Below the pieces are notes generated by a model. The model was not told where the DNA came from. It searched no databases and worked only from the letters and a program-made list of their open reading frames with translations. 64,000 nt of DNA, from assembly GCF_042242105.1 (NCBI RefSeq), contig NC_092019.1, forward strand, positions 13,016,328-13,080,327, given 5' to 3'. This document shows positions 39,701 through 64,000 of the stretch, piece by piece. Source of the stretch: Pempheris klunzingeri. Lineage: Eukaryota > Chordata > Actinopteri > Acropomatiformes > Pempheridae. Both the position numbers and the translations under genes were made by a program. Position 1 is the stretch's first letter. The number at the start of each line of letters is the position of its first letter.

Positions 39701-42700
39701 ATAGAAACAGTCAAGAGCACACAAAGTTCTGGTCCTCCAGAAACATGGGTTCTAGCCAAGAGTTCCTACCCTGGGCAGCAGGTAGTAATGACCCCAACCC
39801 GTGGGTGGAGTTGGAGCTGAGCGATAGACGCACTGTAACAGGTAAAAATGTGTGAATTTATCATTAAAATGACGCTTATCTAAAACATTTCAATACACTT
39901 CAATGAAGCGGTTGAAAGGATATGTCTGATAATATAATACTGAAAAGGCCAAAATCAACAAAGAATTTATCCTACAAATGTACTAATGGTACTATGTATT
40001 ATGTGTCCTCCCTGATATATTTTTAAGATGTCCAAAAACTATTAAAAACATCATATCAGGGAGCCACACGCTTTCATGTTCCTTCATTAAAATGAACAAT
40101 ATTTAGTTTTTACTCAGTACTACATTCAAGGTCCTGTTTATTGTGTGTCAGTCTATTTTTTAATTTCCGCAGTGTCTTGCTGTATTAAATGAAATCACTT
40201 CATCTCAAGTGCCGAGCCAAAAACGTGCTCTCTTTCTTTCAGGAATAATAACGACAGGATCAAACGAGAACTACATAGAATCCTACAGTCTTTTTTTCAG
40301 CAAGGACAGAAAAAATTGGAAGCTTTACAAAGGTGCTCTCAGCAAAGAAAAAAAGGTATGCATTGTACTGTACTCACTGATGTTCATGTGATGTTACTTT
40401 TTGAGTTCCGCAGAGCTGATGTGGTAACTGGGTTTAAACTGTAAGCTCCCCGGTGGTCTCTGTGAATGAGTAACATGGTTGTTGTGGCTCCCAGGTGTTT
40501 CGGGCCTATACCGATGGCCACCTCAGGGTTCTCAACAGCTTTGTTCCTCCGGTGGTGGCTCGCTTTGTACGGCTACAGCCGCTGAGCTGGCATGGCCGAG
40601 CTTCAGCTCAGGTCCAAGTCCTTGGCTGTCCTGTTGCCAAGGCCACACCAAGGTCACGCTCAGCCGCTGGTGGGTATTCTCACTAAACTTAATCTGTTGA
40701 TACAGTCTGTTAAGCAGTGTGAAGTTATGTCTGTACTCCTGATATTATGATCCAACAGAATCTCCATCCATCAAAGTGAACATGGGTACACCACGCCCCG
40801 GCCCCACTCCGACACCCACAGACGGCCCAGTGTTAGTGGAAACAAGACTGAGTGTGTACATGTATTACCCACTAATTTCACATGCGTGTGCAATGAGAAT
40901 GATTATCCTCTTACATTCAACATTGTGTACATTGCAATAAACTGCATTTCCTCCTCACACACTGTTTACTCACTGAGACACTTACTGTCCCTCAGGCTCC
41001 AGTCAGCCGGTCATAGTGGCAGTGGGAGTGGTCCTGGCGCTGATAATGTGCGGCAGTTGTCTGTTAGCTGGAGTCTGGTGGAAGCGAAGGTACTGTGTTT
41101 TAATACTGTTGACTTTTTCTGAATTCATCTATTGAATACAATTTGCACACACCCTAATTGGAGTACTTCACTCTATATTAAAAGCTATTATTTGATTCAT
41201 ACCTTAGTAATTTTGGTGACAGCCAAAGATAACGAGCTTGATAATGATTATTTTTATTTTTGATTAATTTGCTGGTAATTTGTTTTTTCAATTAAATCAG
41301 AAATTTTAAAAAAAATTTGAGTGAGAAATGACAGAAATTCCAAATCGATGATTGAAATATTTATTGACCGATTTGTCATTTAATTGTTTGAGCTCTAGTG
41401 AGGATGATTCAGTAGCCACAGTGTGTACTTAAATGCTTTGTGTTCATCTCCTTCTCCATGTAGGAAAAAGGATTCACAGATGAAGTACTCCTTACCAACA
41501 AGTAAGTCAAGCGCTCTTCGACCTTTTTCTGGTACTTTTCAACCTTCTGTTAAAAAGCCTCTGACTATATTCATTTGTGTGTCAAGTAGGTTGTCAGAGT
41601 TTCCAGGCAAAGGGTCTCCCCTGCCCACAATCAGAGCTCATCTCCTACCCTCTGGAGCGAAATGTCCATGATGCTCTACCTAGCCCTCCTCTTAATGGTG
41701 AGAGTTCATACTTACAGCTGCTATTATCAGCTGCTGCTTTTTTCCTAGCCCTTTTCACTGCCCATTCAGAGGTTACTGCTGATGTTAAGTTGTGAACTCT
41801 GCCTTCGCTGCTCCATATTTCCTGCTCTAACAATCTCTGGCTTCAGTGGTCAGTTTGAGGAGCTCATGCCAGGCCTGACAGGCAAACAGCTCTCTCCACG
41901 GGCTGTCCATTCTTTCCCCTGGCTCAGCCCATCACCCAGTCGCAGTATAAACATTCCTTTCTTTGGTCCACAGAGCCTTTCTGAAAGAGACCCTTTAATT
42001 GGAGCTCGATAAAGGGCGCTCAGCCTACTCCCCCTCCACACCACCAGCCCTCCTCACTGCCTCCCCCGTCCCTTCCCCCACTGTGGGGGCCCTTCACTGA
42101 GAGGTCCAGTGATAAACAGGACAGAGGGTCAAAGCTAAGACAATCAAAGCCCTCACTTGAAGCCTGTCTAATTAAAATAGCTCTGGCTCTGAGGCTCCCC
42201 GTGGGCTCTCAAGTAAGGTCTAGGCCTCCCACACCACAGAGCTCCTCTGTAGGGGCGAAGAGTACAGTCTGGTTCAATCTGAGTACGACTCTGTCAGCCC
42301 CTGTCCCTGTGATTAGAGGAGACATTGTTGGTGGCCAAGACACTCATGCAGGGGCTCAACATTGGCCTGGTATGAGACTGCTATTGAGTAGAAAAGAAGC
42401 ATTTCCCAGAAATTGCAGCACAAGATGCAAATAAGTAATTGATCATAGAGGAATTTTTACCTTAACTGAAGGATACTGCTGTGAGGTATAGTTGATGTTT
42501 TCTTACCCATTTAATGACATTTTCCATCACAATGATGGGAGTAGTAGTGAGGTATGTATCAAAGTGTGTTTTAAAGCTCATAAAATGTCTCATATTTCCC
42601 TCATATAGTGGCTAATCCTAACGCTGATGAATGATGCGTTTAGTAAGAGAGATATAGAACTAAAATGGGTAAACCTTCCCTGACATGTCTGTTTGAAAGT

Positions 42701-45296
42701 CCTCCTAAGGCATGAGCCTAAAGTTAAGAATTTTATCACAGTATTTTAAAGGTGCCTTAAGGTAATTATGTGGTTTTAAAGATTATACTTTAATCCTGGT
42801 GAATTTGAGGGTTACATTAGGTGGCATTAATGGATTGAATTCAAATTTTTTTTTACAGGGTAAAGCCACTAAGAATAAGGTCTCTGTATGAGTTGTACAG
42901 GGATACACTAAACAGGTGTAACAATTTTTTTTTTTCCCATGATAAAACACTTAATTGCTACCAAGAGTTGAAAAGTGAAACACAACAAATAAATCATAAC
43001 AAGGACAGAGTTAAAACAGTTACCAGTTAAAACCATCACATTCAGCTGTTCATGTTTCAGTGACTGTGAGAAACTTACATTCTTAGCTTAGCACAAAGCC
43101 TGCAAACAGGGAGACACAGCTAGCCTGGCTCTGGCCAACAGGAACAAAATCAGCCCAGCAGCACCTCTAAAGCTCCCCAATTAACACATCATTTCTTGCT
43201 TGTTTAATCTGTACAAAAACTGTGTAAGTGTAAAAATGACTATTCACGCATTACAAGGGATCATGTACCAGACTATTTCTTGGCTGGGGCCAGTAACATC
43301 CTGGACTCTGCACTGGTTGCCTGGTGACTGCCCTGAGCTGGCAGCACCTACAGAAATGACCAGTGTTGGTCAAGTTACTTGGAAATAGTAATAAGTTACT
43401 GATTACTGATTACTTCTCCAAGAAAGTAATCCAGTTACTTTACTGATCACTTACTTTTATAAGTAATTAGGTACTTTAATTACTTTACTTAGTTACTTTT
43501 CAAAAACATGATGCACAACCTGAATACACTATAAAGCGATAGACCTTTCAGCCTAATTCTATTCTTTCTGCATATTCCATTATAGAAAATTGAATCAAAT
43601 GAAACTGTCTTTTTTAAAACTTGTTTTATCAGTTTCAGTCTTTTAACTTTATGCACATTGCATCACTAAGTCCTGTCGCTCTCAAGTCTATTTTCACCTG
43701 TTTAGCAGGAGAGGGGCCCTCGAAGTTTCGCCCGGTGGAACTGGATGTGGTAGCCGCAGCGGGCATGTCGGTGGGGGGAACCGGGGGTTTGACATTCCCG
43801 TGCCGGCTAGCTAGGTGCTTGGTTAAATTTGAGGTGGAATTTTTTGATGTGGATAAAGGTTTTCTTCCCACGCACAGTGAACAGCGGACGCTAATATTTT
43901 TGTCACCTTTTACCGAGTCAAACTCAAAGTAATGCCGGTACTTCCAACCATTAAACGCGGTATGTTCCTGCTCTCTCCCGCGCTCCATGTTGTCTCTTGT
44001 TCTTCACTTCACCTGTCTGTTGTTTACCACTGACGTCGCGCCGCTAATACGTCATTGTCACGAGACAGTCTCACAAAACAAAATCACGATTTAGTAACGC
44101 AGTAACGCAGCCTGAAAGTAACAGTAATCTAATTACTGTTTTTGCAATTGTAATCCCTTACTTTACTCGTTACTTGAAAAAAGTAATTAGATTACAGTAA
44201 CGCGTTACTTCTAACGCGTTACTGCCCATCAGTGGAAATGACGGTACCACAAACTGAATATGTAAGATTAATTTTGGACTGAAACTGAACTGGCTCTTGA
44301 TGGTGATTTTAGCTGATACCCGTGCCAATGTTTAAAGGTCCCATATTCTGCTAATTTTCGAGTTCATACTTGTATTTGGAGGTCTACTTTAACAGCTTTA
44401 CAGGGTTTAATGTTCAGTGAAAATATTTTTTTCACAGCAGGCATTCCTGCTGCAGCTGTTTCAGCCTCTGTCTGAACGCTTTGTTTTGAAGGAACAGAAC
44501 AATCTGCTGCTTCACTGTCATCTTGAACGTCTTCGTGTTACCAGGAACTGGAGTTAGTGAGGAAATTATATAATGGTGGACAGGAGGTTTTCAGTGGGCG
44601 AGGACAGTCAGCCTGCTGAGGGGCTGGAGGAGGTCACATGATCAACAGATCCTCTTATGACATCATAAAGGGGGCCAAATCTAAACTGAGTGTTTTCACA
44701 CACATTTACTGAAAGTTGGAGCAGAAGAAACGGAGAGAGGGTGGTCTTTTCTCAGAGTTTGGCAATCTATAGGCACACCAGGGACGCACATTTATGCTGA
44801 AAAGGCATTAAAAAGTGCATTTTGCATAATACGGAACCTTTTAATGAATCTCCAATTAACAGATATATATATTTTTTTACTCATCTTTCCAGACTACGCC
44901 GAGCCTGCTGTTGCAGCTATTGGACCGAAAGTTGGGTCAACATTTAGGCCCTCCTCAGATGAAGGCTACACCGCCCCCTTCACCTTCAACCATTATGACA
45001 CTCCAGGCAACCTGCCAGAGTATGCGGAGCCTCTTCCCCCAGAGCCCGAGTATGCCACCCCATTCAGTGAGCAGCCTTCAGAGTCTCATGGACCTCTTGC
45101 GCCAGCACCCGCCGCTGGTACCAGGACAATATCTGGCCACGCTCAGTACGACTGCCCCTCACACAGGATGCTGTCTAATGGCTACTGCACTCCTGCTCTA
45201 CACGCCAGTGGCCCACGACCAGTCAGTGTGGTCTATGCCGAGCCCAAGTCATGTGACTCTTTACTACAGAAGCACACGTACGAGGAGCCCTTGTGA
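33709..45296 (+). CDS. dcbld2: Discoidin, CUB and LCCL domain-containing protein 2-like receptor
   Basis: Fifteen coding exons: 33,709-33,811; 36,619-36,840; 37,560-37,697; 38,824-38,875; 38,965-39,037; 39,134-39,267; 39,403-39,440; 39,650-39,841; 40,243-40,355; 40,495-40,669; 40,759-40,851; 40,996-41,089; 41,464-41,501; 41,590-41,697; 44,893-45,296. Total 1977 nt, 658 aa. Order: signal peptide (1-about 33), CUB (about 36-154, [29 protein letters not shown]), LCCL (about 155-250, ISCL, YCPAGC, GYRDTSVLC, LGGHV), F5/8-type C (about 254-413, [22 protein letters not shown]), Pro/Thr-rich stalk, transmembrane helix (about 448-472, [15 protein letters not shown]) and a cytosolic tail with nine YxxP motifs. 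In this family, YxxP tyrosines recruit CRK/CRKL SH2 domains. CGHTVLGxESGTL, IITTGS and YAEPLP favour DCBLD2 over DCBLD1. Donors of exons 6 and 11 are weak (GTGTGT), so these two borders are less certain. Shorter than human DCBLD2. Confidence 0.9.
33812..36618. other. dcbld2 intron 1
   Basis: The 2.8-kb first intron starts with GTAAGAAAAA and ends TTTTTGTTTCAG. It holds a poly(T) run near 34,396-34,415 and one reverse-oriented GGGCTGCAA-type repeat. No exon is seen. The 124-codon minus-strand frame at 35,006-35,380 has no motif and no splice context. Confidence 0.6.
36078..36311 (-). repeat. GGGCTGCAA-type dispersed repeat, reverse orientation
   Basis: It ends AATAGTTGCAGCCC, the reverse complement of GGGCTGCAACTATT, and begins near GGCAATTAATCAGTTAGTCG. 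It is the same family as 25,750-26,009, inserted in dcbld2 intron 1. Confidence 0.6.
38736..38779. repeat. Perfect inverted repeat, 19-bp arms, 6-base loop
   Basis: The left arm ACTCCTGTAGACTAATTCA (38,736-38,754) and right arm TGAATTAGTCTACAGGAGT (38,761-38,779) pair without mismatch around TAAGTT. It lies in dcbld2 intron 3, 45 bp before the LCCL exon at 38,824. Confidence 0.95.
41249..41400. repeat. Possible decayed copy of the GGGCTGCAA-type repeat
   Basis: Words TGATTATTTTTATTTTTGATTA, read as two overlapping pieces, plus GCTGGTAATTTG and AATGACAGAAATTCCAAATC resemble the family. The ends are not preserved. It lies in dcbld2 intron 12. Confidence 0.35.
41698..43030. other. dcbld2 intron 14, left part without recognised element
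   Basis: It begins with the donor GTGAGAGTTC. The stretch 41,800-42,430 is GC-richer than the rest of the intron and has short open frames on the plus strand, but no acceptor/donor pair gives sequence resembling the DCBLD tail. An unannotated alternative exon or conserved noncoding element cannot be excluded. Confidence 0.5.
43030..43345. repeat. Teleost dispersed repeat (GCTAGCCTGGCTCTG type)
   Basis: It carries the successive words AGCTTAGCACAAAGCCTGC, ACAGCTAGCCTGGCTCTGGC, CAGCACCTCTAAAGCTCCCC and GACTATTTCTTGGCTGGGGC. I recognise this order from many percomorph introns. No family name is claimed. The hAT element at 43,361 inserted just to its right. Confidence 0.55.
43361..44234 (-). mobile_element. 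hAT-superfamily element with BED-finger fragment
   Basis: An 874-bp element flanked by a perfect 8-bp target duplication, GAAATGAC, at 43,353-43,360 and 44,235-44,242. The outer ends are short imperfect inverted repeats (CAGTGTTGG on the left, CACTGATGG reading inward from the right), followed by AGTTACTT/AGTAAC-rich subterminal sequence on both sides. Eight-base duplications and this end structure are typical of hAT transposons. It sits in dcbld2 intron 14. Confidence 0.9.
43635..43988 (-). pseudogene. BED zinc-finger N-terminal fragment of a ZBED/hAT transposase
   Basis: The 117-codon frame starts MERGREQEH and holds a BED finger: aromatic [14 protein letters not shown], then HLASRH, with the linker STSNLTKHL shared by hAT/ZBED proteins. 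The catalytic RNase-H-like core and dimerisation domain are absent, since the frame stops and the element ends soon after. It is the 5' coding piece of an internally deleted, non-autonomous copy. It lies antisense within dcbld2 and no host function is indicated. Confidence 0.8.
44334..44842. mobile_element. MITE-like element with AAAGGTCCCATATT-type inverted ends
   Basis: The left end AAAGGTCCCATATTCTGC and the right end, read inward as AAAGGTTCCGTATTATGC, form imperfect terminal inverted repeats. Inner words ATGACATCATAAAGGGGGCC and AAATCTAAACTGAG match a repeat I recognise from teleost introns. TTTAA-like bases occur at both borders but the target duplication is not clear. The right end is only 50 bp from the acceptor of the last dcbld2 exon. 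Confidence 0.7.
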
Positions 45297-47170: not shown

Positions 47171-49181
47171 TCACTCTCCACTGTTATCACGGACCCTCTC
47201 GTTTGTGCTCGACTCTTTCCTCTGCACCTCCTCCTCCTCCTCTCTGCCCTCAGACGAGTAGTGCATCACACTCTGGTGTCTGTTCCTGGACGGGGCGTCC
47301 TTAAAACGCAGCCCACAGTCTTCACATGCATACAGAAGCCCCTCTCTGTTACTGCCTGGGTTTGCTCGCTCTGACTGGGATTTGCTGCCATCACGGCCGA
47401 GCAGAGCGGAGCCAGGATTAGTTGGAGAATCTCTGGAATTTGGAGCTGAGTGTGAGTTTCTACCTGGGCTGCTGGGTGCATTGAGCCCAGTGCTGGCTGG
47501 AGGAAAAGTCCTGGGACGCCCAGGCAGACAGCCACGGCCCGCTGGTTCCCCAGCACCAGTTTCTCCGGCATGTTCGGGGGCCAGTCCGTGCACTGTGCGA
47601 TAGTGGAAGCGGATCCCGGAGCGGTTGGAGAAGCCTTTTCCACAGACGCTGCAGATGAAGGGCCTCTCTCCTGTGTGGATGCGGGTGTGGATCTTGAGAG
47701 CTCCCGACTGGGTGAAACATTTCCCACACTCACTACAGCGGTAGGGCTTCTCTCCTGTGTGGGTCCTCTGATGGGCCCGGACCCCGGCCAGATGGGGAAA
47801 TCCCCTGCCACAAAATCCACAAGAGTATGGCCTCTCGCCCGTGTGAATCCGCCTGTGGATCTTCAGAGCCCCCGACTGGCTGAAACTCTTCCCGCAGTCG
47901 GAGCAGGTGTAGGGCCGAGCGCCAGTGTGCACGTTGAGGTGGATGCGGAGGTTGCTGTGCGAGTTGAAGGTCCTGCCACACTCTGTGCAGAGGAAGCCGG
48001 ACGGTTTGTGGGCGTGCTCGGAGCGCTGGTGCTGCAGCAGCTGGGACGGTCTGGGAAAAGAGGCAGAGCAGTGCATGCAGGGATGTAGCGACAACATGGT
48101 CATAGCCGCCCTGCCTCTTTCCTCTTGTTGCTGAGTGTGTGTTTGTCTGTGGCACGCCTGAGTGCAGGCAGGGAAGGAGTGCTGGCAAGACAAGCAGGGA
48201 AAAGTGCCCGAGATCTGTGGAGCTTGAGAGCGGGCGAGCTGAGGGCAGGGCAGACAGGATGTTATGGGACAGTGGTGGTGATGAAAATGATGGGCGTGGG
48301 TGTGAGAGAATGGGGAGTTTGTGCCCTCCTGGTGGCTCAGTATCTGGGCGCAGGTTTGTAGACTGCGCTGGCAACACAAGCAGGGAAACATGGAGAGGTG
48401 GGACAAAGAGCCTGAGGACGCTCTGGCAGGAGGAGTGCCTGAGTCCTGGTTCGAGCTCCGAGTCCCTCTGTCTGCCTCCTTCCTCAGCTGTTGGCTGGAC
48501 GGCCTGGTCTCTAGCTCAGATGTGGTGGTGCTGCTTGGTTCAGTGTCCGGTAAGGGGTGGCACGCCGCCTCCAAGGACATGGATTGTCTGGGCTTTAAAG
48601 TCTCAAAGGAGGAAGCGGTATAAGGGCAGCGAGGGCAGGTGCAGGCATAATGCACATCTAAGCATAAAAAAAAAAACATAAATTACAATAAAATTAAAGT
48701 ATTTGCAAGAAATTGGATGAATTATGTTGAGCTCTAACCTCTCCTGTCTCTGGCCTCTCCCTTCCTCTGTCGGCTCGGCTCTGCCTCTGCCGTGTCCTGG
48801 GAAGGTCGAGACAGTGGTAGGGGTCCGAGTGAAGCACCTTTGAAGCCCAGAGCCTCTGCACCACCGGCACCAGCACCCTCACCTGCAACAGCCAGGCTCC
48901 ACGCTGCGCTTAGCACATCTGGCTGATCCTTCGAGCTGTTTCCAGATGTCATAAGGTCACCAATGAACTGATGCATCTCCATCCAGGAGCACTGACCATG
49001 CTGCAAGAAGCACAAGGCAGAGTCGCAGAGTCAGAGCGCGTTTGGTGTGTAAAGAAAAAAAAAAAGAGGTCAAAACGCTTCGTGGCTTCAGCTGAAAACA
49101 TTGGCTCCTTCTAATCAAAAGCGACTGATTCAAAGATCGGGGTCGCCTACTTACAACGTCGCTGCACTTGTCTTTGTCCAT
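47171..49181 (-). CDS. C2H2 zinc-finger protein, 543 aa
   Basis: Three coding exons: 49,155-49,181; 48,883-49,000; 47,171-48,657, joining in frame (1632 nt). Start MDKDKCSDV, then [16 protein letters not shown] and a Ser/Thr-rich, low-homology N-terminal half with three degenerate CxxC repeats (FPCLCC, FPCLSC, HPCMHC; the third completes a finger). Five fingers run in tandem at about residues 270-405 ([50 protein letters not shown]), four of them joined by HTGE/ARP-type linkers. This arrangement is typical of sequence-specific DNA binding in the nucleus. One more finger ([10 protein letters not shown]) lies near residue 491 before an acidic tail. No KRAB, SCAN or BTB domain is visible. I do not recognise the ortholog. 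A second donor at 48,739 would retain 48 in-frame codons. Convergent with dcbld2. An ETS-like ACCCGGAAAT lies upstream at 49,341-49,350. Confidence 0.85.
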
Positions 49182-51054: not shown

Positions 51055-54000
51055 TCACTGAAAATGTGACATGCATTTCTCTGTATCAGTATAAGCACGG
51101 CACGAAACATCGACCTCCATCTTGATTTCTTTCTCTGTGAGCTGATTATGTCTGGATGGCGACAAATCGCCATCAACGGCAGCAGGCTGTGGCTCTTTCT
51201 TAATGTCTTTCTTAATGTCCCCATTAAAAGCGGAGAGATCCATCCGATCCATTTGAAGCCGCTTCAATTCAGTATGTGTATCCGTCTCTCCAGGATAAGT
51301 TTTAGCAATCGCTTTGCTAATACCGTTTTTAAATTCTTGACTGTCAGTGGCATCAAATTTGTCCGGCTCACTTTTAACAGGAAGAAGAGGAATGTCGTTC
51401 AGAGCAGACGTAGAGGAGTTACACTTCTTGGACAAATCCAGAGGTGCTTCACAGTCCGGATCCTGTTTAATCTCAGTTACCAAATCCATGGGTGCCACTC
51501 CGGCAGCAGCATTCACTCCAAGGTTTTCGTGTGAGACAGTCAGGAGAGCTGCTTGAGGCTGGACCTGCATAGCTGGACCTGGCAGCGTCTGAGAGACGGC
51601 AGATGGGAGCGCAGGGCCAGTGGTTTGCGTTGGAGTGACGGGAAGAAAAAGGACAAGTTTAACACCTGGAGGGGGTCGTTTGTTGAGGGTTAGCTTCCAC
51701 ACTCCATCTGCTGGACTGGAGCCAGCAGACAAACCAGGGGGCGCCACAAGTCCCGGACTAGTTGAATCTGTTGGTTTCAACGAGACGGGTTCTGCATCAG
51801 GCTTTTTCCTCTCAGACGAGGAGGACTTCGAGGCCTGCCGTTTTTTAGGTGCAGTCTAAAATGAGAAACAAAACAAATGCGTCTCAGCCACTCAGTGAAT
51901 TATACAAAACACAAGTGGGACATGCAATGTAACAGGTGGTGATCGCTGTAACTTTCAACCAGTTAAATTCTCAACATAACGACACAGTGCCAACTGTTTT
52001 CCAACAGGAAACGTTTTGTAATTCTTTTGTTATTGGTGCTTAAAGGAAATTCCAAAATTTAAAAGTCCTCTTCCACTCAAAAATCTGTTTTGCTTATTGT
52101 TACTTCACTTCGATGTTTGACCGTCACCATGCAGAATGATGCACAGGCAGGAGGCTGTTTTCAGTTTCATCTACTGAGGGCCAAATAAGAGACGAGCACA
52201 TGCAAGCAGACTTTACTTGTTTGCGAGCCAATCATTGTCCAATGTGAAATGTACACAGAGTGGTCCTTTAAGTGAAGTAGGAGACGCTTTGTGTCCAGCA
52301 GTTAAACTTTTGGGAGGGAAAAAATTTGTTTACTTGCAGAGTCTGGACTTTTTTTTTTTTTTAAGAGTAATTTAGGAGACTTTAGCAGCAAAAGGTAATT
52401 TGACTGTTGTGGGAAAACCATCGACACGACTTTTCATTCCAAGCTGAGTGTTTTTATGTGTCTTATGAAACATCTCTGGCAGGAATCTTTAACAGTCAGA
52501 TGCCAAAAAAAACATTCTGTGATTGGCTTTTTTGACACAAAATCAAACCAACGGTAAACAAACACTGATAGTGTGAATTTAATTTCTTAATTTCCAGGAG
52601 CAAACTCTCAAATTCTGGATGTTGGAGTTTCACCTTAACTGCTAGATGACAATAATTAAGATGTTGTCAGCGACATGCAGTTTTTATGGATTACCTAACC
52701 CAAGAAAATTTCATATCTGTGCAATTTCATCATCACGTACAGTTGAATTATTTAAAGTTTTTTTTTTTTTTTTTATAATTAAGAAGTAGGACATCAATTC
52801 AAAAATGTTAACACGCCTTGAAGTTTGTGCCTCCAGTCGTCTAACTTCTTGCCTGTGCAGTGCTGTGCAGGTGCATGCGAGCATAGAGTTACATCACTCT
52901 TGGGTGTGGTTACAGGTACAATAAAGCACGCTGCAGCACACATCCCACCACACCCCTGATCCTCCATTTCACCCTTCAGAGGTGAAAAGCTTTCAACTGC
53001 AGGGGGCTATGAAAATCCTGTCAGACTGGTAGGAAGTTACTTTTAAATAAAGTGCTATACGATTTAAATTTAAAGGGCAGATCAAAATATTGGTCCTTTT
53101 AAACTCATACTGTGCGTCGCCATGACGCCCCACACTCACCGCAGGCTGGGGTGTTTGTCCACAGGTCTTAAGGTGGCTGTCATAATTCTGCTGGTAGGGA
53201 AAGCCCAGTCCACAGCTCTGACAAAGGCAGGGCGACTTGCCGGCATGACCGCCCATGTGGGACATTAACAGCAAGGCTGACCGGAACCCCTTTCCACAGT
53301 CAGCACATTTCAGCACCCTCTGGTGAGCCCCGGCATGTTTCTTCAGCTCTTCTGAAGTGTCAAATCTCTGCCCGCACTCCAAACATCTGATCTCATCCCC
53401 TTTGGGCTCCTGATTGCCCCAGCAGCCTGTGTCCTTTTTGTGCTGCTGGAAGTCCTCCTGACTGAGAAACTCGCGGAGACACGCCACGCAGTGAATGCGC
53501 TCAGGCTCACACTTGTGGTGGCGGTACAGCTTTGCCAGGCGGAAGTGGCAGCGGCACCGTATGCAGGTGTAAGGCAATAAACCAAGATGGGAGAAGCTGT
53601 GTTTCAGGAGAGCATTCTTCTTCGTAAATGTCTCTGTGCAGTCCGTGCACTTAAAATTTCGACGGCACATCCTCCTCTGGTGGCGAGCAAGGGATTTTGG
53701 AGAGGAGAAATTGCGACCACATACTTCACATATGATATTCATCATACAATCGTGTGACTGCACGTGATATTGACACTCCGTCAGGGAAGTGAACAAGCGT
53801 TTGCACAGGTCACACTCGTAAAACTCATTCTCAAAGTGAGTTCTTGAGAGGTGGTCTTTCAGATCTTCCTCTGACACAAAGACCCTCAGACAGATGCGGC
53901 ACAGCTGACGGTCCACCTTGGTCTGGGCGTGCGTGCGCAGGTGGATGCGGTAGCTGTAAATCTGACAGAAGCGCTTTCCACATTCGGCGCAGCAGTACGG

Positions 54001-55339
54001 GCGTGCTCCAGTGTGCAGGTTCATGTGGTCCTGGAGCTTGAATTTGGAGGGCAGCTGGAGATCACAGATGCTGCAGCAGTAGTCACCTGACTCTGTGGAG
54101 AGAGGATGGAGATCAATGGTGCCGACTGATATGAGTTAGATCATTACTGAAAATACACACTCAGCAGGCAGGAGTGATTAGACATGGACTGACCTTGTCA
54201 GCGTACATCTTCCATTTCTAAAATCCATACTTTTCCACAGACTTTTCGGTAGATTTTTTAAAACATATTTGACATCTGAGTACAAATAGTAAATGGTTTT
54301 AAAATCCAACTGTTAAAATGTTACATTCTGACTGCTGAGATGCCATTTGACGTGCTTTGTTCAACATCACAAGTTGCTGCCAAAACTAACGTACATAATA
54401 CGTTGCAAAAATTAGTAACTTACTAAAGTAAGTCAGTTTATTTTACATATTACTGTCACAGTAATATGTGTAGCATGATTTTCTACGCTATGGACTATTG
54501 TGTTGGTTACATTTAACTTCACTTCGGCGTCACTGTGTGTTCACTGCTCTGTACCTCCTCATCTCCTGAGTGCTGCCTCGTGACAGTAACACCTATGATG
54601 CTGATTAGACTTGAGGCAGGATGTGTTCTGGATGTTTCATCTGTTATGTGTAAACATGCTGGACCAGTTGTGTGTGTGAGTGAATGTGCAGGAAGGTGTT
54701 TGTGGGCTCAACTCAAAGTAAACTATAGTGCCCAATACACTGGAAATTAAACTACAGCAATTCAGCTAAAATGCTAGTGTTTTCAGACAGGCTGAAAACA
54801 AAACACTACTGCATGCTTACAAGAGTCATACCATTGTTTAGTCCTTCCTCGTCCACATAATCCTCTTCCTCATCAACCTCCTCTTCGTCGTACACATCTG
54901 AAACCTCACTGTCGTCGGAGTCATTCTCCTCACCCTTCAGTGATGCATCTCTCCCTCTATTGCCACCCTGTTTGGTTATTAGCGGCCGAAGCTCTGCAGT
55001 TTGTGGACCAGCAGGGCTTTTGATAGCTCGTCTGTCTTGAGGAACTTGTGCAGGATTTTGGGTTAAACAAGGTAACACAGAATCCACTGTGGTTGGTTGA
55101 TTATTTGACGTCTGTTTTTCTGCACCTGACTTTTTATCATGACCTGACTGCTGGCCTCCGACCCGCCGCCTTTGCTTGTGTGTTTTTGGACGTGAGGGGG
55201 GAGTGTGGCTGGGTGAGAGGGAGTCCTCAGAGGAAGTGGACCGTCGGGGTGCGTCTCTGTCCGACGTGTCCAGCGGCTGCAGGATGTCCGGAAATCCCAG
55301 CTCAGTTAGCTGGATGTCAATGGTGTATTCAATGGACAT
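51055..55339 (-). CDS. C2H2 zinc-finger protein with PLDLS motif, 753 aa
   Basis: Three coding exons: 54,832-55,339; 53,140-54,092; 51,055-51,855, in frame (2262 nt). The start MSIEYTIDIQL is chosen over an in-frame upstream ATG because GCAGCCATGT is a near-ideal Kozak context. The N-terminal 170 residues are Ser/Pro-rich and basic, ending in an acidic run (YDEEEVDEEEDYVDEEG). Eleven C2H2-type fingers follow at about residues 172-482. Several are unusual, ending in Cys or with a shortened spacing (HQRRMC, HHKC, HLKTC). The last exon encodes a 266-aa tail with PLDLS at about 625-629 (51,430-51,444), the core CtBP-binding motif, and four KxE/D sites (IKQD, VKSE, IKKE, IKME) matching the SUMO consensus. 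Together these suggest a transcriptional repressor; that is inference. The ortholog is not recognised. A donor AGAA|GTGAGT at 55,851 may end a noncoding first exon. Confidence 0.85.
51856..53139. other. Intron of the 753-aa zinc-finger gene
   Basis: 1.28 kb, starting GTGAGTGTGG and ending TCTCATTTTAG on the minus strand. Homopolymer T runs occur at 52,350-52,362 and 52,759-52,775. No other feature is seen. Confidence 0.7.
54093..54831. other. Intron of the 753-aa zinc-finger gene
   Basis: 0.74 kb between the acidic N-terminal exon and the finger exon. Nothing distinctive is seen. Confidence 0.7.
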
Positions 55340-55987
55340 GGCTGCTGGCTGAGGAGTCAGCACGAGACACAAAGGGCAGGTGTTCAATGGGCATCTGACA
55401 TTCAGATTAGCACAAAGAGTTATGGACTAAAGTTTAAGACAGTAAATGTATGTTTGTTGATAATTAAATTAACAATAAGAGATAGTATTGCCAGAAATGT
55501 CTGTTTTGCCTTACCTGTCGACCGACTACATCTGTAGATATTCCTCTCAGCCTTAGTTTTCTCCTTTCTTTTGTTACCTATAGCGCTCAGCAAACACCTT
55601 TTCCATAGAAAGTAATTCGTGACACACCTGAACGCACCGTGGGTCACCCCGTTCACCTGGCAGGAGGAGCTGATGATAACAAAGCGTGGCTCCACAACAA
55701 TTAGACCACAAGCTTTACCCTCGACTTTAGCCTCTTATCTCAGAGCAAATTAGAGGCGTATTTTGTACCAGAAAGAAAACAAAGAATTTGCCTAAAAGAC
55801 GTGGTAAATGGCGCGAAAACAATTAGCCAAACAGCTAGCTACAAACTCACTTCTGCCGATGATGGTGAAGAGGAGCAGGCACAGAGGAAAACAGATGAAG
55901 CATCAGAGGCAGAGCGCACCCCTGTGAGCGCTCTAGCACGCCTAGTGTCCTGGAGCGGTATTACATGACAAACCAGCAGCACAGTAC
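55340..55987. promoter_or_regulatory. 5' region of the 753-aa zinc-finger gene
   Basis: A likely noncoding exon ends at the donor AGAA|GTGAGT (55,851, minus strand), and a possible acceptor TGACTCCTCAG precedes the start codon. Transcription probably starts near 55.9 kb. No TATA box is evident. Confidence 0.45.
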
Positions 55988-57065: not shown

Positions 57066-58605
57066 AACAACGAGGCACTTAGTTTCACAGAACATTAAGC
57101 TATAAGAAAAAAAAAAAGAAAGCAGTTTGGATTTTGGTTATCATTTAGTAGACCCCTTTTTCTTAAAAGGAAATTGAAAAGCCGGGAACGCATAAATCTC
57201 ATTACTTTAACCCACTTGGACTCCACATAAAAAAAACTATTTGCATGACAATTACATATACAAGTATTGCATCCAAATATGAAAACTAGAACAGAGACAC
57301 ACAACAGCAGCATGTCCCAAACTATAAAGAAAGGACACACCAATATCAGCATGCTGGGATAAAAAGTAAAGGTACATCAGCAAAATCAGAGCTTCTCACT
57401 GAATCAATTTAAACTCCAGCTGGGCTTGTGAACAACCTAGCAACAACTAAACCTTTAATGATGCTGTTGCTAGGCAGAAAAAAGGTGAATCTTGGTATTA
57501 AACAACTAAATACGGCAACATTAATTTAACCATTGATACCCAGCATCTTTCCCATTGTGGGAAAACATACCATGATAAAAAGACCATATTTCAGGCTGTG
57601 TTCTTTCACTTGAAGCAAGAACAAAGACAAAAAGGCAAGTTATTTCTTCAGCAGCCTCCCTTGGGATAGCATGTTTTATTACATTTTTTGCAGTGTCCAG
57701 ACACATTGCAGTAGGGAGAGAAACAATCCAATCAGTGAATAACACATGATATACACAGTTCCTTATGGGACTCTAAGGCATTAAAGAGCCATGAGTTCCA
57801 TTTAAGAAATGTCTAAGACATGAAATATTTTTTCTAATAGGTGGAAAAATAAAAAGGGAGTAAATTTCAATGTAAGACAAATCAGGATTAAAGTGGATCA
57901 TTTCTGCCCACGTGTGAAACACTCCACATTGAATCTGGAGCACAAATACATTTTCAGCAGAGCTTAATCATGTTATTTTAAATTCTTCTTCAATGAGACT
58001 TAATTTAGAAAGGAACATAATCAAAATATTAAGTGTAAAAAATGCAAAAATATGAACCAGAAGCTGTACATTACACATTTCCTTTGACAGACTGTCTAAA
58101 CATTCAAACATAGTATCTCTACTAGGCATCTAATTTGCTTCAAAATATGTACTTATCCAATCTGTTTGAAAAAAACATGAGGAAAAAAAAAAACAAACAT
58201 AAAAAACATTTTTTACCACAAAGTGAGTTTAACAACTAAAGACACAAAGTAATAAATTCACACCACACGCATTTCACACTTTAAAAAAAAACTGAAACAA
58301 ATCATTTAAAAAGGTTAATCAAAACAGTTTTTACAAATAAAATATGTTTTGTGACAATGGGTAAAATACGGATTTAACGACATTTGGTTAGTTAATTTAG
58401 GAGATGTGTCTGCTTGTCCAGAATTTCAACAGCCTGTGATCAAAACTCAACTTTAAATCCAAACCTTGCTAAAACGTCATTCTCAAAACCGTTCGAAACT
58501 CATCTGAGACCATCATCTAGAGCATCAGATCTCCAGTTTTAAAAGAAAAAAGGACAATTCCTGACTAAAATCTCTAAAACCAAGCACTTTCTGCCCACGT
58601 CTCAA
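57066..58605. other. Intergenic region and probable 3' UTR of the 416-aa zinc-finger gene
   Basis: AT-rich sequence. A minus-strand AATAAA at 57,675-57,680 could end the upstream gene's transcript. No coding exon is seen. Confidence 0.5.
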
Positions 58606-60775
58606 TTATCTCTTAGCACTTGGGTTTTCAGGCTTTTCCTCCGGGTGGCTCTTCTCGTGAGCCTTCAGGGTGCGCTCACGGCCGAAGCTCTTCCCACAGG
58701 TTGGACAGGCGAAGCGGCCCACAGCGTGAGCCCGGGACATGTGGGCGTCCAGCTGCTCAGGACGGGCAAAGCTCTCTTCACATTCTTCACAGGGATGGGC
58801 TTTCCGCGGGCTGTGTTTCTCCTTCTTGTGAGCGCGTAGCTGAATCAAACCGGGGAATGTGAGGTCACATTCAGGACAGGGATGCTGGCGGGGTGGAGCA
58901 GGCTCTACTTTAGGTTTCTTCTCCTTTCCTGCAGCTTGACTGTCATCCTCAGGACTCTTCTTATCCTCCGTTTCTGATTTTGCTGCTGCTTTAGAAGGAC
59001 GGCCGCGCTTCGCTCCGGCTGCTTTTCCCTTTTCCTCCGCTGCTGGTGGCGCTGCCGACTCTGATGTGCTGCTGGCCTTCACTGCTTCCTCTGATGCCTC
59101 TGCCTCGTCCTTCTTTTTCCGCTTTCCCTTTTTCTCAGCGCTTGCTGGTTCTTCAGTTTTGGAAGGCCGCCCCCGTTTCTTAACGGATGAAGCACTCCCG
59201 TTGCATTGCTGGCCTTCAGGATACTTCTCCTGGTGTGCTGCCAGCTCCGACTCCGTTTCAAAGCCCTGACCACACTTCTTACAGCGGTGGGTTTTTGTGG
59301 CGTCCTCCGGTTGTTCTGCGGTCTCTACGTCTGGGCGGGGATGCTGCGCCAGGCGATGAGTACGCAGCAGCCCAGCACTCCTGAAGGTTTCATTGCAATC
59401 CTTACATACCAACTGTTTCTCTGGACACACCTGTCTTCTGTGGGCTGTGAGCTGCGAAGGACAGGAGTAAAACGGGGACATTCAATATAAAGTGGAATAC
59501 ACTTAATATTCTTTTTGGTATTCTTCAGGTCGTTTTGCTTTAATACTGCTAGTGGCAATAACTTTCAAACAATTTTCTAGAAAATACTTCTTCTTATTAT
59601 ACTCACTTCAGAGAAAGTTTTAAAGCTCTCTTTGCAGTGAACACATTTGAAAGGCTTGTCATCCTTGCTGTGTGTCGGCTGGTGCTGCGTCAGTTCCTCA
59701 GATGACAGAAATGTGCGGTCACACACGTAGCACGTGAACAATGTGTTACCCTGCGAAGAAATAACGAAGGAGGGGCAAAGTTAAAACAATTCAAGACCAA
59801 GAAGAGTACTTGTGAAATGTTAGACGGCAACTTTATTAGATTCACTTTGTTCCCCAAGGACAAATAAAGTGCAGAAGTTCATCCTGGATTATTAAAAACT
59901 AATCACTGCAATAATGTATTAAATGTGTATGCTGTACATAGAGTGTGCAGTCTTGACTATTCTCAAGCAACATCTAGCTCAATGTTTGCTTCATAAAATA
60001 TCAATCTCACCTTCACAGAATAACTTACTCTAACACAAACTATAACAAGTGAATGCATTTAAGCCCTTTGTGACCATCTTCTTTTTCTTGCATTGCAACG
60101 GCATTAACTTCACAACAATATCAAGGATAAGGCAACGCAAAATCTCAGACTGTACTTATAACCTAGTAAGGGCAACTATGATAAAGTAATGGTTGCTTAA
60201 CACATAAGAAACCTCTTTCATTGCCTATGCGAGTACATTTAAGCACTGAAAAGTAGAAAGGGAAGAAAATAACAGGCACTGCAACAAGATCAAACACCTC
60301 ATTGTCAGCACGTAGGAAAACCCATCATAAACACCTATTAAAAGATCTATAAGTTTAATGTAAGGGCAAATATGGCCACACAATTTTCACTACTCACTTA
60401 ACAGACATTGTGAAGCTTACCTGCTGAAGCTGTTGCTTGTACTCTTCCCGGTGGCTCTTCTTCATATGCCTTTCCTTGGCTTTGGCACTGCAGAACGTGA
60501 TGAAGCACTGGAAACACTGCAGGTTTTCATGCTGGTCTGGGGGGGACAGGAGGAGATTAGAGAGATCAGGCAAAGACAAAGTTAATCTTTCACCACACAG
60601 AGATAAAGTTGCAAAGCCTGTTACACTTACAGGGCTGAACAGAGGATGCAGGAGGTCCATTCAGAGTGATGGGCTTGTATGGCTCTGCTGGCTTTTCAGG
60701 GGGAACTTCTGGAGGTGGATCAGGTAGCCCCCGTCCCATCACTATCTCTTCTATGTTCAAAATCTCCGAGTCCAT
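58606..60775 (-). CDS. C2H2 zinc-finger protein with two AT-hook motifs, 416 aa
   Basis: Four coding exons: 60,631-60,775; 60,421-60,536; 59,607-59,750; 58,606-59,451, in frame (1251 nt). N-terminus MDSEILNIEEIVMGRGLPDP is followed by a Pro-rich segment. Fingers or finger-like units: LQCFQCFITF, FTCYVCDRTF, FKCVHCKESF (split by an intron, closing HRRQVC), LVCKDCNETF, HRCKKCGQGF, then after a 120-residue charged linker HPCPECDLTF, HPCEECEESF and FACPTCGKSF. The linker is Lys/Glu/Ala-rich and carries KKRGRPSK (about 226-233) and AKRGRPSK (about 282-289), both with the GRP core of AT-hooks that bind the minor groove of AT-rich DNA. The combination suggests a chromatin-associated DNA-binding protein; the ortholog is not recognised. 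The neighbouring zinc-finger genes share no linker or exon pattern with it, so it is not a recent tandem duplicate. Confidence 0.85.
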
Positions 60776-61650
60776 CCTGGTATATTGGGTGGTCTCAACA
60801 GGCACTCACAACTAATATCTCTGGATTCAATTAAAGCACAAAGCAGAAAGAAAGACAACAGGAAAGCGGGTTATTCATTACATTGGAGAAAGCAAACAGC
60901 TGTTTGTTTAATAGCGGGAACACAACAATGTTGTAATCCCACACATGTCGTCGGGAATCAGTTATGTTCAACAGATGAAAACATATATAACATTTTAGGT
61001 AACTGAAAAACTATTTTTTTCAAAGAAACCACAGCGTGTGTGTTTACACTATCCAGTTTCCCCGCATGAATCACTCAAGTTCCTGCTAATTTTGGCTAAC
61101 GTTGCGTTACTGACTTTAAGGCCGCTAGCTAAGCTAACTAGCTCCATGCAAACCTACGAGCGCGTAGCCATTAATTAGCTGATTAAAAATACATTAACTG
61201 GTCTGGCTGGTAAACTGGGGCGGTTGCAGAGAAGCTAAGTGCTTTAGTTTAAAGTCTGTGCACGACGCTAACGCTAATCATTAAGGACCAGGCTATCGAG
61301 CGGGCTAACGCTAGCTAGCTTGCTACTAGTTAGCGCTAACAACACTGACTGCCATTCAAAGCGGATCGAAAGACTTTTCACACACCAAGTTTTAACAAAT
61401 TGTTCGGCTCTAGCAAACATCTGCTATGCAGCAATATGATGTGCGCCAATACCTATACCTGAAGCAAACTATTTAAGTAACACAGATATAACAGAGTGAA
61501 CGTTTGCGTTTACCTTTAGCCGCTCTTTGAATGTAGTTTGACTGAGAGAGTTGACCCTAGAGAAGTACAACGGGTAGATCGGACACTTCCTGGTGTACGG
61601 TTGTGTTAGCCGATGCTACAACTAAGATGGCTGCCGGGGACTCTTCAACA
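60776..61650. promoter_or_regulatory. 5' UTR intron and promoter of the 416-aa zinc-finger gene
   Basis: On the minus strand, a donor TAAAG|GTAAAC at 61,514 and an acceptor TTGAATCCAG at about 60,821 frame a 5' UTR intron. Upstream are an ETS core (minus CCAGGAAGTG, around 61,585-61,592) and a YY1-like AAGATGGCTGCC on the plus strand at 61,624-61,635. The intron has many GCTAA/TTAGC words (61,095-61,340). No TATA box. Confidence 0.5.
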
Positions 61651-63106
61651 CTATGTTGTTATTGATCACGTTCAGACAAACCATTCAAATATCAAGTATA
61701 GATCTGGCAAGAATTTCCGTCACTGATACAGAGCAGAGTTTTGCATTGCAGAGAGCGCAGGAAGAAATATAAACCTTTCATGGAAACCAGGCACATGATT
61801 TCAACACCATACTTGGTTTTTGTTTCAAAACGATGTCGCACTTGTTAATATACTGTTTCAGCTAATAAAAGCTGCAAAAACACACAACAGGACGGCTATA
61901 TAATTATGGACATTGATTTGAACTATCCTGCTTTTCTATTCAGCCGGAATCTATGGCTGATCTCTGTCACGTGACCCAAAACAACTTAATGAAAAGTACT
62001 TTACGTTTTCATTCGCTGGTAATAGTTATTGTTTTGTTTACCTCCCTCTCTCTCACTTTTATCTATTAAATCTTCGATTGCATGTTTACCTGCACACGAA
62101 CAGGCCCCTCATACAGTCTGTTTGTACAATCCTATGTTGGCTCATATATATAATCATATATCATCCATATTGGAGTATGAATATGTACTCAGTTTACTCA
62201 GTCAGGTAGTTTCAGTATTTGATTGGTCATATGTGGCCATAGAGTCTATGTCTTTCACCTTCCATTTCCCTGTGGGGAAATGACAAGTTAAAATTTCTGT
62301 TGTCAAAAAGGTGGATCGGGAAAACTTCAGATTCAGGATCTGCTTCATTAGACCAGCATGTGTACACAGGCAATGAATTTAAGTTGTTTTTGCTGTACAG
62401 AACAATTTACAGGATAGAAATAGACATACAGCTAAAACTAACAGCAACGCTGAATAAAAACTGTAGAAAAAAGTAGAAGAAAAAGTGTGTATACAAATAG
62501 ATGTATAAAAATGGTGTACAGTGCTCTATAGCACCTACCAGAGGAGAGAAGTTTGAGTGTGTCCACGGTGTGATGGATCTGTGGTTAGATTTAATTTGCC
62601 AGTAGTCTTAAAAGGAAAAAAAAAAAATCAACAATTTGTGTATTGTTTCCATTTGTCTTTAATTTCTTTCTGAAATTCAAATAAATAATGTTAAAATTCA
62701 TAAAGTCATGAACATAGTCATCATACAATGCAAATGAGAACAGGCTAAAATGAATAGTAAAAAACATTATGCAATACTGTAATGTAAAAATGATATTTTT
62801 GTGCTTCTTTTGCGGCACAAAAGTATGGCTATGAGTATTTTTTCCTTCTGAAGGCAAATTCATTTTTACACTTTACGCTCAATGACATCATAAGCCACAT
62901 CACAAAGCATTTGTTTGTTCTTTAACTGCAGCACAATAATCCTACAAAACAATGACACTGCCAACGAAAGGCATCATGGAAAAGTTGTAAGGACAGGAGA
63001 TCATTCCATTTTTTGATTACCTGGGTTTACATACACAAAAAGCACAGTTATATTCTAACCAGACAGCAAAATGTTGAAAAATAAATGGTTAAATCTGTAG
63101 TGGATA
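61651..63106. other. Intergenic region
   Basis: It contains the palindrome GTCACGTGAC at 61,966-61,975, an E-box of the USF/TFE type. It also covers the presumed 3' UTR of the piggyBac-derived gene. No coding exon is seen. Confidence 0.5.
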
Positions 63107-64000
63107 CTACTCTTTTCCCAAACTCCCTTGATTATGGAAGTTTAAAAAGCAGTTGTGGTTGCGGGAGATACAAAGAAAGACGCAGCACTTAAGGCATAGC
63201 ACTCGAGATGTTCTCTGACAATCCCCAAAGCGACACCTGCCTCCTTCTCCCTCCCCAAGCTGCTCTGGCCAGTGGCCTGAACCATCGTACCGTGTAGCCG
63301 CATCTGGTAGAGGACTTTCGTCCACCAGGCTGGGACTGGAGGTTTCATTTGTTGCATGAGCCTCCTCTATGGGGGTTTGAGGAGGTACTGAGTCCTGGTT
63401 ATCAGAGCCACTGGAGAGGATCAAAGCCTTAGACACCTCCAATCTGAAGGCCATGAGAGTCAAAGGTGCAGACGCTGCCCTGTGGTCCTGTCTGTATAGG
63501 AGCCATGAGTTGACCAAAGCCAGATCTGTTAGGTACCAGAGCACCGCTTGGGGCCAGCAGGTTGGTGCAGAGGCAGTGAGAGGGATAGAGTAAAGCTTTA
63601 GCAGGTCTCTGTTGAGGTGAGCCGACATCTGGGCCTTCTCAAAGTTGTCAATGAGCAACGCCATGTTCCTCTGGCCATTTCCCGCAGTGGAAAGAATGAA
63701 GCCGCAATGCGATCTGCGTAACATCAGCTTCCCATCTGAGCTGACGAACTCATCTCCGATCTGTCCTCGCGCTCCTCCCACTCTGCCGGCCCCGTGAATC
63801 CCGGCAACCAACAGACGTTCCAGCATAGCAGGGGTGGAGAGTTCCTGTTTGCAAAGAAACACCATACTACCTCTGGGGACCATTTTCTCTATAGCATCTT
63901 CTTTGTCGGTCAAACCCAGTTTAAGATCCACATGTAAGAGCAAACCGCCAAATCCAATTAACGTAGTACAGAGGAGAGACGGTTTCTTATTGTGCATCTT
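63107..64000 (-). CDS. piggyBac transposase-derived (PGBD-like) protein, C-terminal part
   Basis: Open frame of at least 296 codons, ending TGA/TAG-type stop at 63,107 and still open at the window edge, so the start lies outside. The fold pattern is that of a DDE_Tnp_1_7 (piggyBac) core: GKLMLRR-type strand, then YLTDLALVNSWLLYRQ, the family's conserved terminal helix of the catalytic domain. A Cys-rich zinc domain follows (GRCRFGDCQRTS, VLCLKC, FLC, NHNCFLNFH), which in piggyBac enzymes binds the transposon ends. The positions where active enzymes have Asp look changed: the usual MDNFYSS reads LCKQELS, the WxDxRD segment reads AGNGQRN, and GGVDxSDQ reads SAHLNRDL. The frame is intact despite this, which suggests a domesticated host gene rather than a dying transposon. 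No inverted terminal repeats or TTAA borders are seen on its right or left within the window. Confidence 0.75.
   Translation of the reverse strand, partial: KMHNKKPSLLCTTLIGFGGLLLHVDLKLGLTDKEDAIEKMVPRGSMVFLCKQELSTPAMLERLLVAGIHGAGRVGGARGQIGDEFVSSDGKLMLRRSHCGFILSTAGNGQRNMALLIDNFEKAQMSAHLNRDLLKLYSIPLTASAPTCWPQAVLWYLTDLALVNSWLLYRQDHRAASAPLTLMAFRLEVSKALILSSGSDNQDSVPPQTPIEEAHATNETSSPSLVDESPLPDAATRYDGSGHWPEQLGEGEGGRCRFGDCQRTSRVLCLKCCVFLCISRNHNCFLNFHNQGSLGKE

Follow-up and report, generated by a model that had tools for sequence, protein, structure and literature searches.

A piggyBac-derived open frame with a replaced catalytic aspartate and a Cys-rich C-terminal domain in a fish genome

Proteins that combine a dead piggyBac core with a kept Cys-rich domain are already in print, namely human PGBD2 and Paramecium PgmL1-5. 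The catalytic DDD triad is reported as lost in PGBD1 and PGBD2 (PMC6143343), and PGBD2, PGBD3 and PGBD4 are named as carriers of the Cys-rich domain, which in PGBD2 follows the layout of PiggyMac and piggyBat (PMC8086355, PMC11707139). PgmL1-5 are described as domesticated piggyBac proteins with a broken triad and kept zinc ligands (PMC8086355, PMC6143343). PGBD5, a vertebrate protein, lacks most of the catalytic aspartates and has its transposase domain distributed over 7 exons (PMC3902484); it is described as having no recognisable Cys-rich domain (PMC8086355). Domesticated PGBD proteins of the fishes Oreochromis, Pundamilia and Takifugu appear in a published alignment of the Cys-rich domain (PMC8086355, Fig. 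1). Among the active enzymes, the catalytic residues are given as D268, D346 and D447 for the piggyBac transposase of T. ni (T. ni PB; PMC2533014) and as D237, D309 and D413 for piggyBat (PMC11707139).

The gene considered here lies at the edge of a 64 kb stretch of DNA from Pempheris klunzingeri that was analysed as a whole (the window). With human PGBD2 it has in common the damaged triad and the Cys-rich domain, but PGBD2 is described as conserved in mammals, and the two were compared by description rather than by sequence. Similarly, PgmL1-5 share the broken triad and the zinc ligands, but belong to a ciliate and are reported to act with the catalytic Pgm in DNA elimination. PGBD5 resembles the gene in being a vertebrate protein with missing catalytic aspartates and differs from it in that the Cys-rich domain is present here and 297 codons run without interruption. 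The solved structures of piggyBat (9c0f) and T. ni PB (6x67) show the same order of core elements and the same terminal helix, but both are active enzymes with all three aspartates, and the Cys-rich domain of T. ni PB is described as having another fold (PMC11707139). The first-pass annotation had presented the gene as a candidate for an undescribed system. This novelty was overrated because the comparison made at that time covered PGBD5 only; in the published accounts of PGBD2 and PgmL1-5 a broken triad is already paired with a Cys-rich domain. The kind of protein is already known, and the gain is therefore modest. If orthologs and selection were confirmed, the gene would be a further case of a piggyBac gene taken over by its host after retirement. 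It would also be one in which the separation of a dead core from a kept zinc domain is open to direct testing, as the latter may bind the ends of old transposons, may bind histones, or may do neither.

The frame runs on the minus strand from 63110 to 64000, comprises 297 codons without interruption and ends with a stop at 63107-63109, while its 5' side is open at the window edge (Table 1). The earlier description of an intact frame of nearly 300 codons was thus accurate. In a set of 200 simulated first-order Markov windows of 64 kb each, the longest open frame measured 233 codons (mean 166), and none of the 200 windows reached 297. The G+C content at codon positions 1, 2 and 3 was 0.55, 0.45 and 0.55, compared with 0.417 for the surrounding region 62001-64000. 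The codon-usage score of the frame was 0.012, as against 0.06-0.29 in the five training stretches, which were window stretches taken as coding (three with zinc-finger matches and two without a Pfam match). This score was matched or passed by 2 of 2000 non-coding stretches, and one frame read in the reverse direction scored higher. The open frame is real, and codon usage gives a weak coding signal.

Table 1 Features of the piggyBac-derived frame (residue numbers refer to the protein P0001, counted from the window edge)
Feature	Position	Strand	Basis
C-terminal part of piggyBac-derived protein P0001, 297 codons and stop	63107..64000	-	Open frame, homology
Residues 8-29, probably a pair of strands, matching those that follow the first catalytic Asp	63914..63979	-	hhalign; low-confidence model
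C50-K51, K51 at the second catalytic Asp column	63848..63853	-	MAFFT, hhalign
Residues 128-132 (HLNRD), next to where the third-Asp motif GGVDxxDQ would lie; motif probably deleted or replaced	63605..63619	-	MAFFT, hhalign
Residues 147-171, C-terminal core helix TCWPQAVLWYLTDLALVNSWLLYRQ, best-conserved piggyBac segment	63488..63562	-	PF13843 profile end; HMM of T. ni PB and piggyBat
Residues 243-289, putative Cys-rich domain	63134..63274	-	Ligand layout compared with PMC8086355 and PMC11707139

The descent of the frame from piggyBac is remote, yet well supported. Three overlapping pieces of the protein scored 11.6, 13.0 and 12.0 bits against the Pfam family PF13843, for which the cut-off is 22.4 bits, and we call the protein only 'piggyBac-derived' because its score lies below this detection threshold. 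The helix LTDLALVNSWLLYRQ was paired with the C-terminal end of PF13843 (at best profile positions 298-349 of 349), so that the terminal piggyBac helix recognised in the first-pass annotation was recovered, with the weak scores given above. Homology to the solved members of the family rose above the level of shuffled sequences. Profiles for HMM and hhalign comparisons were built from T. ni PB (6x67) and piggyBat (9c0f), with or without an assumed piggyBac consensus. Residues 1-175 reached an hhalign score of 42.9 against the two enzymes plus the consensus (best of 200 shuffles 21.3) and of 31.1 against the two enzymes alone, with 24 columns aligned (best of 200 shuffles 20.0). When the whole protein was searched with the HMMs, residues 147-170 were aligned and 0 of 2000 shuffles reached the score with either profile. 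The C-terminal helix provides the homology signal, to which residues 50-171 add when the three-sequence profile is used.

In tblastn searches of the window the frame was the top match for T. ni PB (E 0.004) and for the assumed consensus (E 0.006), and was absent among the matches of the piggyBat core at E values up to 10. No match to P0001 was obtained among PDB sequences at E values up to 10. Pattern searches for relatives of P0001 returned 8 matches in viral contigs and 106 in genome contigs, and the assumed consensus returned 49 in viral contigs; none of these matches was confirmed. Towards the window edge, hhalign set residues 8-29 against the T. ni PB segment KYGIKILMMCD...YMINGMPYLG. A single-sequence AlphaFold2 model of P0001 (mean pLDDT 35.9) places strands at residues 8-17 and 20-29. 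The order of elements in this model agrees with the alignment, but the model is too poor for a comparison of folds and proves nothing.

The catalytic columns were located with six MAFFT runs and with hhalign. In piggyBat the three aspartates would fall on the motifs SLDEG, YMDNY and GVDRADQ of 9c0f, given an offset of six residues. For the second Asp (D346 in T. ni PB, D309 in piggyBat) the result was uniform, as all six MAFFT runs and hhalign placed Lys51, which adjoins Cys50, in this column. For the third Asp, five of the six MAFFT runs and hhalign left the column of D447 as a gap, and the sixth run (genafpair) filled it with Tyr137. The motif GGVDxxDQ is missing from the frame. In the gapped MAFFT runs, D132 lay one column from D450 and four columns from D447. 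The alignments suggest that the third catalytic Asp was likely, though not provably, deleted or replaced, with D132 close by.

For the first Asp, three of four hhalign settings put residue 1 at T. ni column 24 and D268 at column 11, and the fourth setting covered residues 50-171 only. By this alignment the first catalytic column would lie some 13 codons past the end of the window; the spacing of 78-81 residues reported between the first and second Asp (PMC10813416) would shift it nearer to 28 codons beyond the edge. Three MAFFT runs (localpair with both sequence sets and genafpair with one set) placed the whole window part of the protein after the D268 column, and the two globalpair runs did so for residues 2 onward, with residue 1 stranded in front. 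In the remaining run (genafpair on the trimmed set), the first 22 residues were spread across the D268 motif and the D268 column itself was a gap. A window residue thus filled the D268 column in none of the six runs. The tally suggested by these alignments is one catalytic Asp clearly gone, one probably gone and one outside the window. An active transposase would have Asp in all three columns; here the second holds Lys51 and the first lies beyond the window.

In the first-pass annotation all three aspartates had been considered lost, with Cys, Asn and Asn in their places. Lys51 bears out that one catalytic residue or more has been lost. The loss of all three was rejected, since the first column was set 13 columns before residue 1 in three of the four hhalign settings and the third Asp is only likely to be lost, with D132 near its position. 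The residues Cys, Asn and Asn were given by none of the MAFFT or hhalign runs, and the manual alignment from which they came seems to have put the first Asp inside the window.

Behind the core, eight putative zinc ligands were recognised (H243, C256, C261, C269, C272, C277, C284 and H289), along with an extra C273 and H282. Their spacing is H-x12-C-x4-C-x7-C-x2-C-x4-C-x6-C-x4-H, compared with H-x10-C-x2-C-x7-C-x2-C-x10-C-x7-C-x3-H as printed for PiggyMac (PMC8086355). The order H-C-C-C-C-C-C-H is the same in both proteins, and by sequence the domain has the layout of a His followed by seven Cys or His. The Cys-rich C-terminus with kept ligand residues, as first annotated, is borne out. The second half of the domain is spaced nearly like the piggyBat segment C-x2-C-x4-H-x3-C-x4-H. 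Pairwise similarity of the Cys-rich domain alone was not convincing, as the score with piggyBat was reached by 302 of 5000 shuffles and that with T. ni PB by 48 of 5000. The domain was assigned because of the order of its ligands and its position after the core. The only Pfam match of the C-terminal piece was to the C-terminal domain of Tc5 transposases (E 0.042; 14.7 bits, cut-off 27.4).

Two published findings bear on the partner of this domain. The Cys-rich domain of PiggyMac is reported not to bind DNA and to bind histone H3 weakly (PMC8086355), whereas that of piggyBat contacts bases by the loop residues R543 and E545 (PMC11707139). The loop between the ligands comprises 7 residues here, as in PiggyMac, and 12 in the DNA-reading loop of piggyBat. 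When the loops of the printed sequences were counted back from the following Cys, the positions of R543 and E545 held Q and T. Because the piggyBat loop is five residues longer and its base-contacting residues fall on Q and T, we lean towards a contact with chromatin or protein rather than sequence-specific reading of DNA. Against this lean, proteins with the Cys-rich fold, PGBD2-4 among them, are ranked as a DNA-binding family (PMC11707139). The domain had been labelled as DNA-end-binding, a label for which we find no support: the ligand order equals that of the non-DNA-binding PiggyMac domain, and the loop has 7 residues versus 12 in piggyBat (PMC8086355, PMC11707139). As an established fact the label was rejected, since similar structures are stated not to let the preferred substrate be predicted (PMC8086355, section 15); it is an assumption.

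On balance, the locus is probably the 3' half of a host gene that arose from piggyBac in the manner of the PGBD genes. The core of its protein would no longer cut DNA, and the gene would be retained because its scaffold and Cys-rich domain are of use. We infer that the gene has lost catalysis and is upheld by selection, and that it acts in the following way. The dead transposase core would dimerise, and the Cys-rich domain would tether the protein to chromatin, possibly by histone tails as in PiggyMac or, alternatively, by remaining ends of old transposons, a mode reported for PGBD3. The tethered protein could then affect expression or silencing in the vicinity without cutting. A more specific form of this idea, in which a single-copy dead piggyBac protein present throughout fishes has switched its Cys-rich domain from transposon ends to histone tails and serves as a lone regulator, is improbable. 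If this chromatin reader were real, vertebrates would have a counterpart of the non-DNA-binding domain of the PiggyMac type, with the 7-residue loop as the mark of the change of partner.

Upkeep of the frame was assessed by simulating neutral decay. Over the part that the window covers, T. ni PB and piggyBat have 61 columns in common in the localpair alignment and 70 in each of the other two modes; 15 of these are kept here in all three modes. The simulated frame was still open in 3 of 3000 cases at 54% residual identity, in 1 of 3000 at 45% and in none of 3000 at 32%, 24% and 19%, where identity was read over residues 1-172 and the ancestor was assumed to resemble the active enzymes. Since so few columns were kept while 297 codons stayed free of stops, and neutral decay seldom leaves the frame open, the result speaks for upkeep of the frame during the divergence of the core, provided that the ancestor resembled the active enzymes. 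The earlier argument that a preserved frame points to host use therefore retains some force, but it presumes such an ancestor.

In a separate simulation of decay, 534 of 1000 frames were still open at 96% identity to the start. A copy from a piggyBac family that had already diverged from T. ni PB and piggyBat, and that was inactivated recently without any host use, would have an undecayed frame and look equally open. In a survey of small animal genomes, 127 of 212 piggyBac types are reported without an intact copy (PMC10813416). However, a recently dead copy is expected to retain the triad, which is described in the same survey as highly conserved across seven clades (PMC10813416), whereas here Lys51 occupies the second column and GGVDxxDQ is gone. 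Traces of a transposon around the frame were also sought. A second copy was not detected at a significant level within the window; the best other DNA match measured 26 nt (E 0.11). The motifs TTAACCC and TTAACCYT, which we take to be piggyBac transposon ends, were both absent from 58319-63106, the 4.8 kb downstream of the frame and thus on its 3' side, the only side visible in the window. This absence likewise counts against a recently dead copy, which we consider unlikely.

The nearest end motif, TTAACCTT, was found at 58311-58318 on the minus strand and thus in an orientation that does not suit a 3' end; on the plus strand, TTAACCC at 57207-57213 came closest. End motifs were rarer than in shuffled sequences (2 observed against 5.1 expected, and 3 against 6.7). 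Among the inverted repeats in 60000-64000 none was tied to a transposon end. An imperfect inverted repeat of 25 nt with 80% complementarity (60466-60490 and 62950-62974, 2459 nt apart) sits downstream of the frame and may be due to chance.

Two further readings keep a piggyBac origin, and both are very improbable. In the first, a domesticated protein would still handle DNA by a non-canonical active site, as reported for PGBD5, which is described as lacking three of four conserved Asp (PMC3902484) and for which transposition activity was reported (PMC4625184, PMC12324416, PMC6143343). D132 near the third position would fit such a site, but the second Asp column is basic here (Lys51), and changes at D268, D346 or D447 were found to impair excision by T. 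ni PB (PMC2533014). In the second, the frame would be the 3' exon of a gene like CSB-PGBD3, a fusion that joins by splicing a 5' part of host origin with an end derived from piggyBac. The 5' end lies beyond the window and such a fusion is described from primates (PMC3902484), but no feature of the window favours a fusion, and the frame reaches the edge inside the transposase core. Least probable is an origin outside piggyBac, with a coding exon of another kind that resembles the family in its helix and Cys pattern: the PF13843 score below the cut-off, the weak Tc5 match and a structure model too poor to help would all allow it, but helix, core segments and Cys-rich domain stand in the correct order, and shuffled sequences never reached the profile scores (0 of 2000 for the HMMs, 0 of 200 for hhalign).

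Several other coding stretches were recorded in the window, while Rfam and tRNA scans of the 64 kb yielded no matches. The nearest downstream frame with a Pfam match (at least 100 codons, same strand) is a stretch of C2H2 zinc fingers at 58606-59481, and further C2H2 zinc-finger coding stretches on the minus strand were found at 47171-48682 and 52993-54135. Two minus-strand stretches without a Pfam match lie at 51055-51855 and 54806-55426, the former with a motif of the PLDLS type, which we take to be CtBP-binding. On the plus strand, frames between 36.6 and 40.7 kb matched CUB (E 5.7e-14) and F5/8C (E 1.4e-4 and 9.8e-4, both below the Pfam cut-off), and a Tyr-rich frame was found at 44685-45296. 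Together these plus-strand frames (36597-45296) presumably represent a DCBLD-like receptor gene. Opposite the receptor-like frames, a minus-strand frame at 43635-44003 encodes a BED zinc finger (PF02892, E 3.2e-5, above the cut-off), which is perhaps a hAT-derived fragment or a ZBED-like gene.
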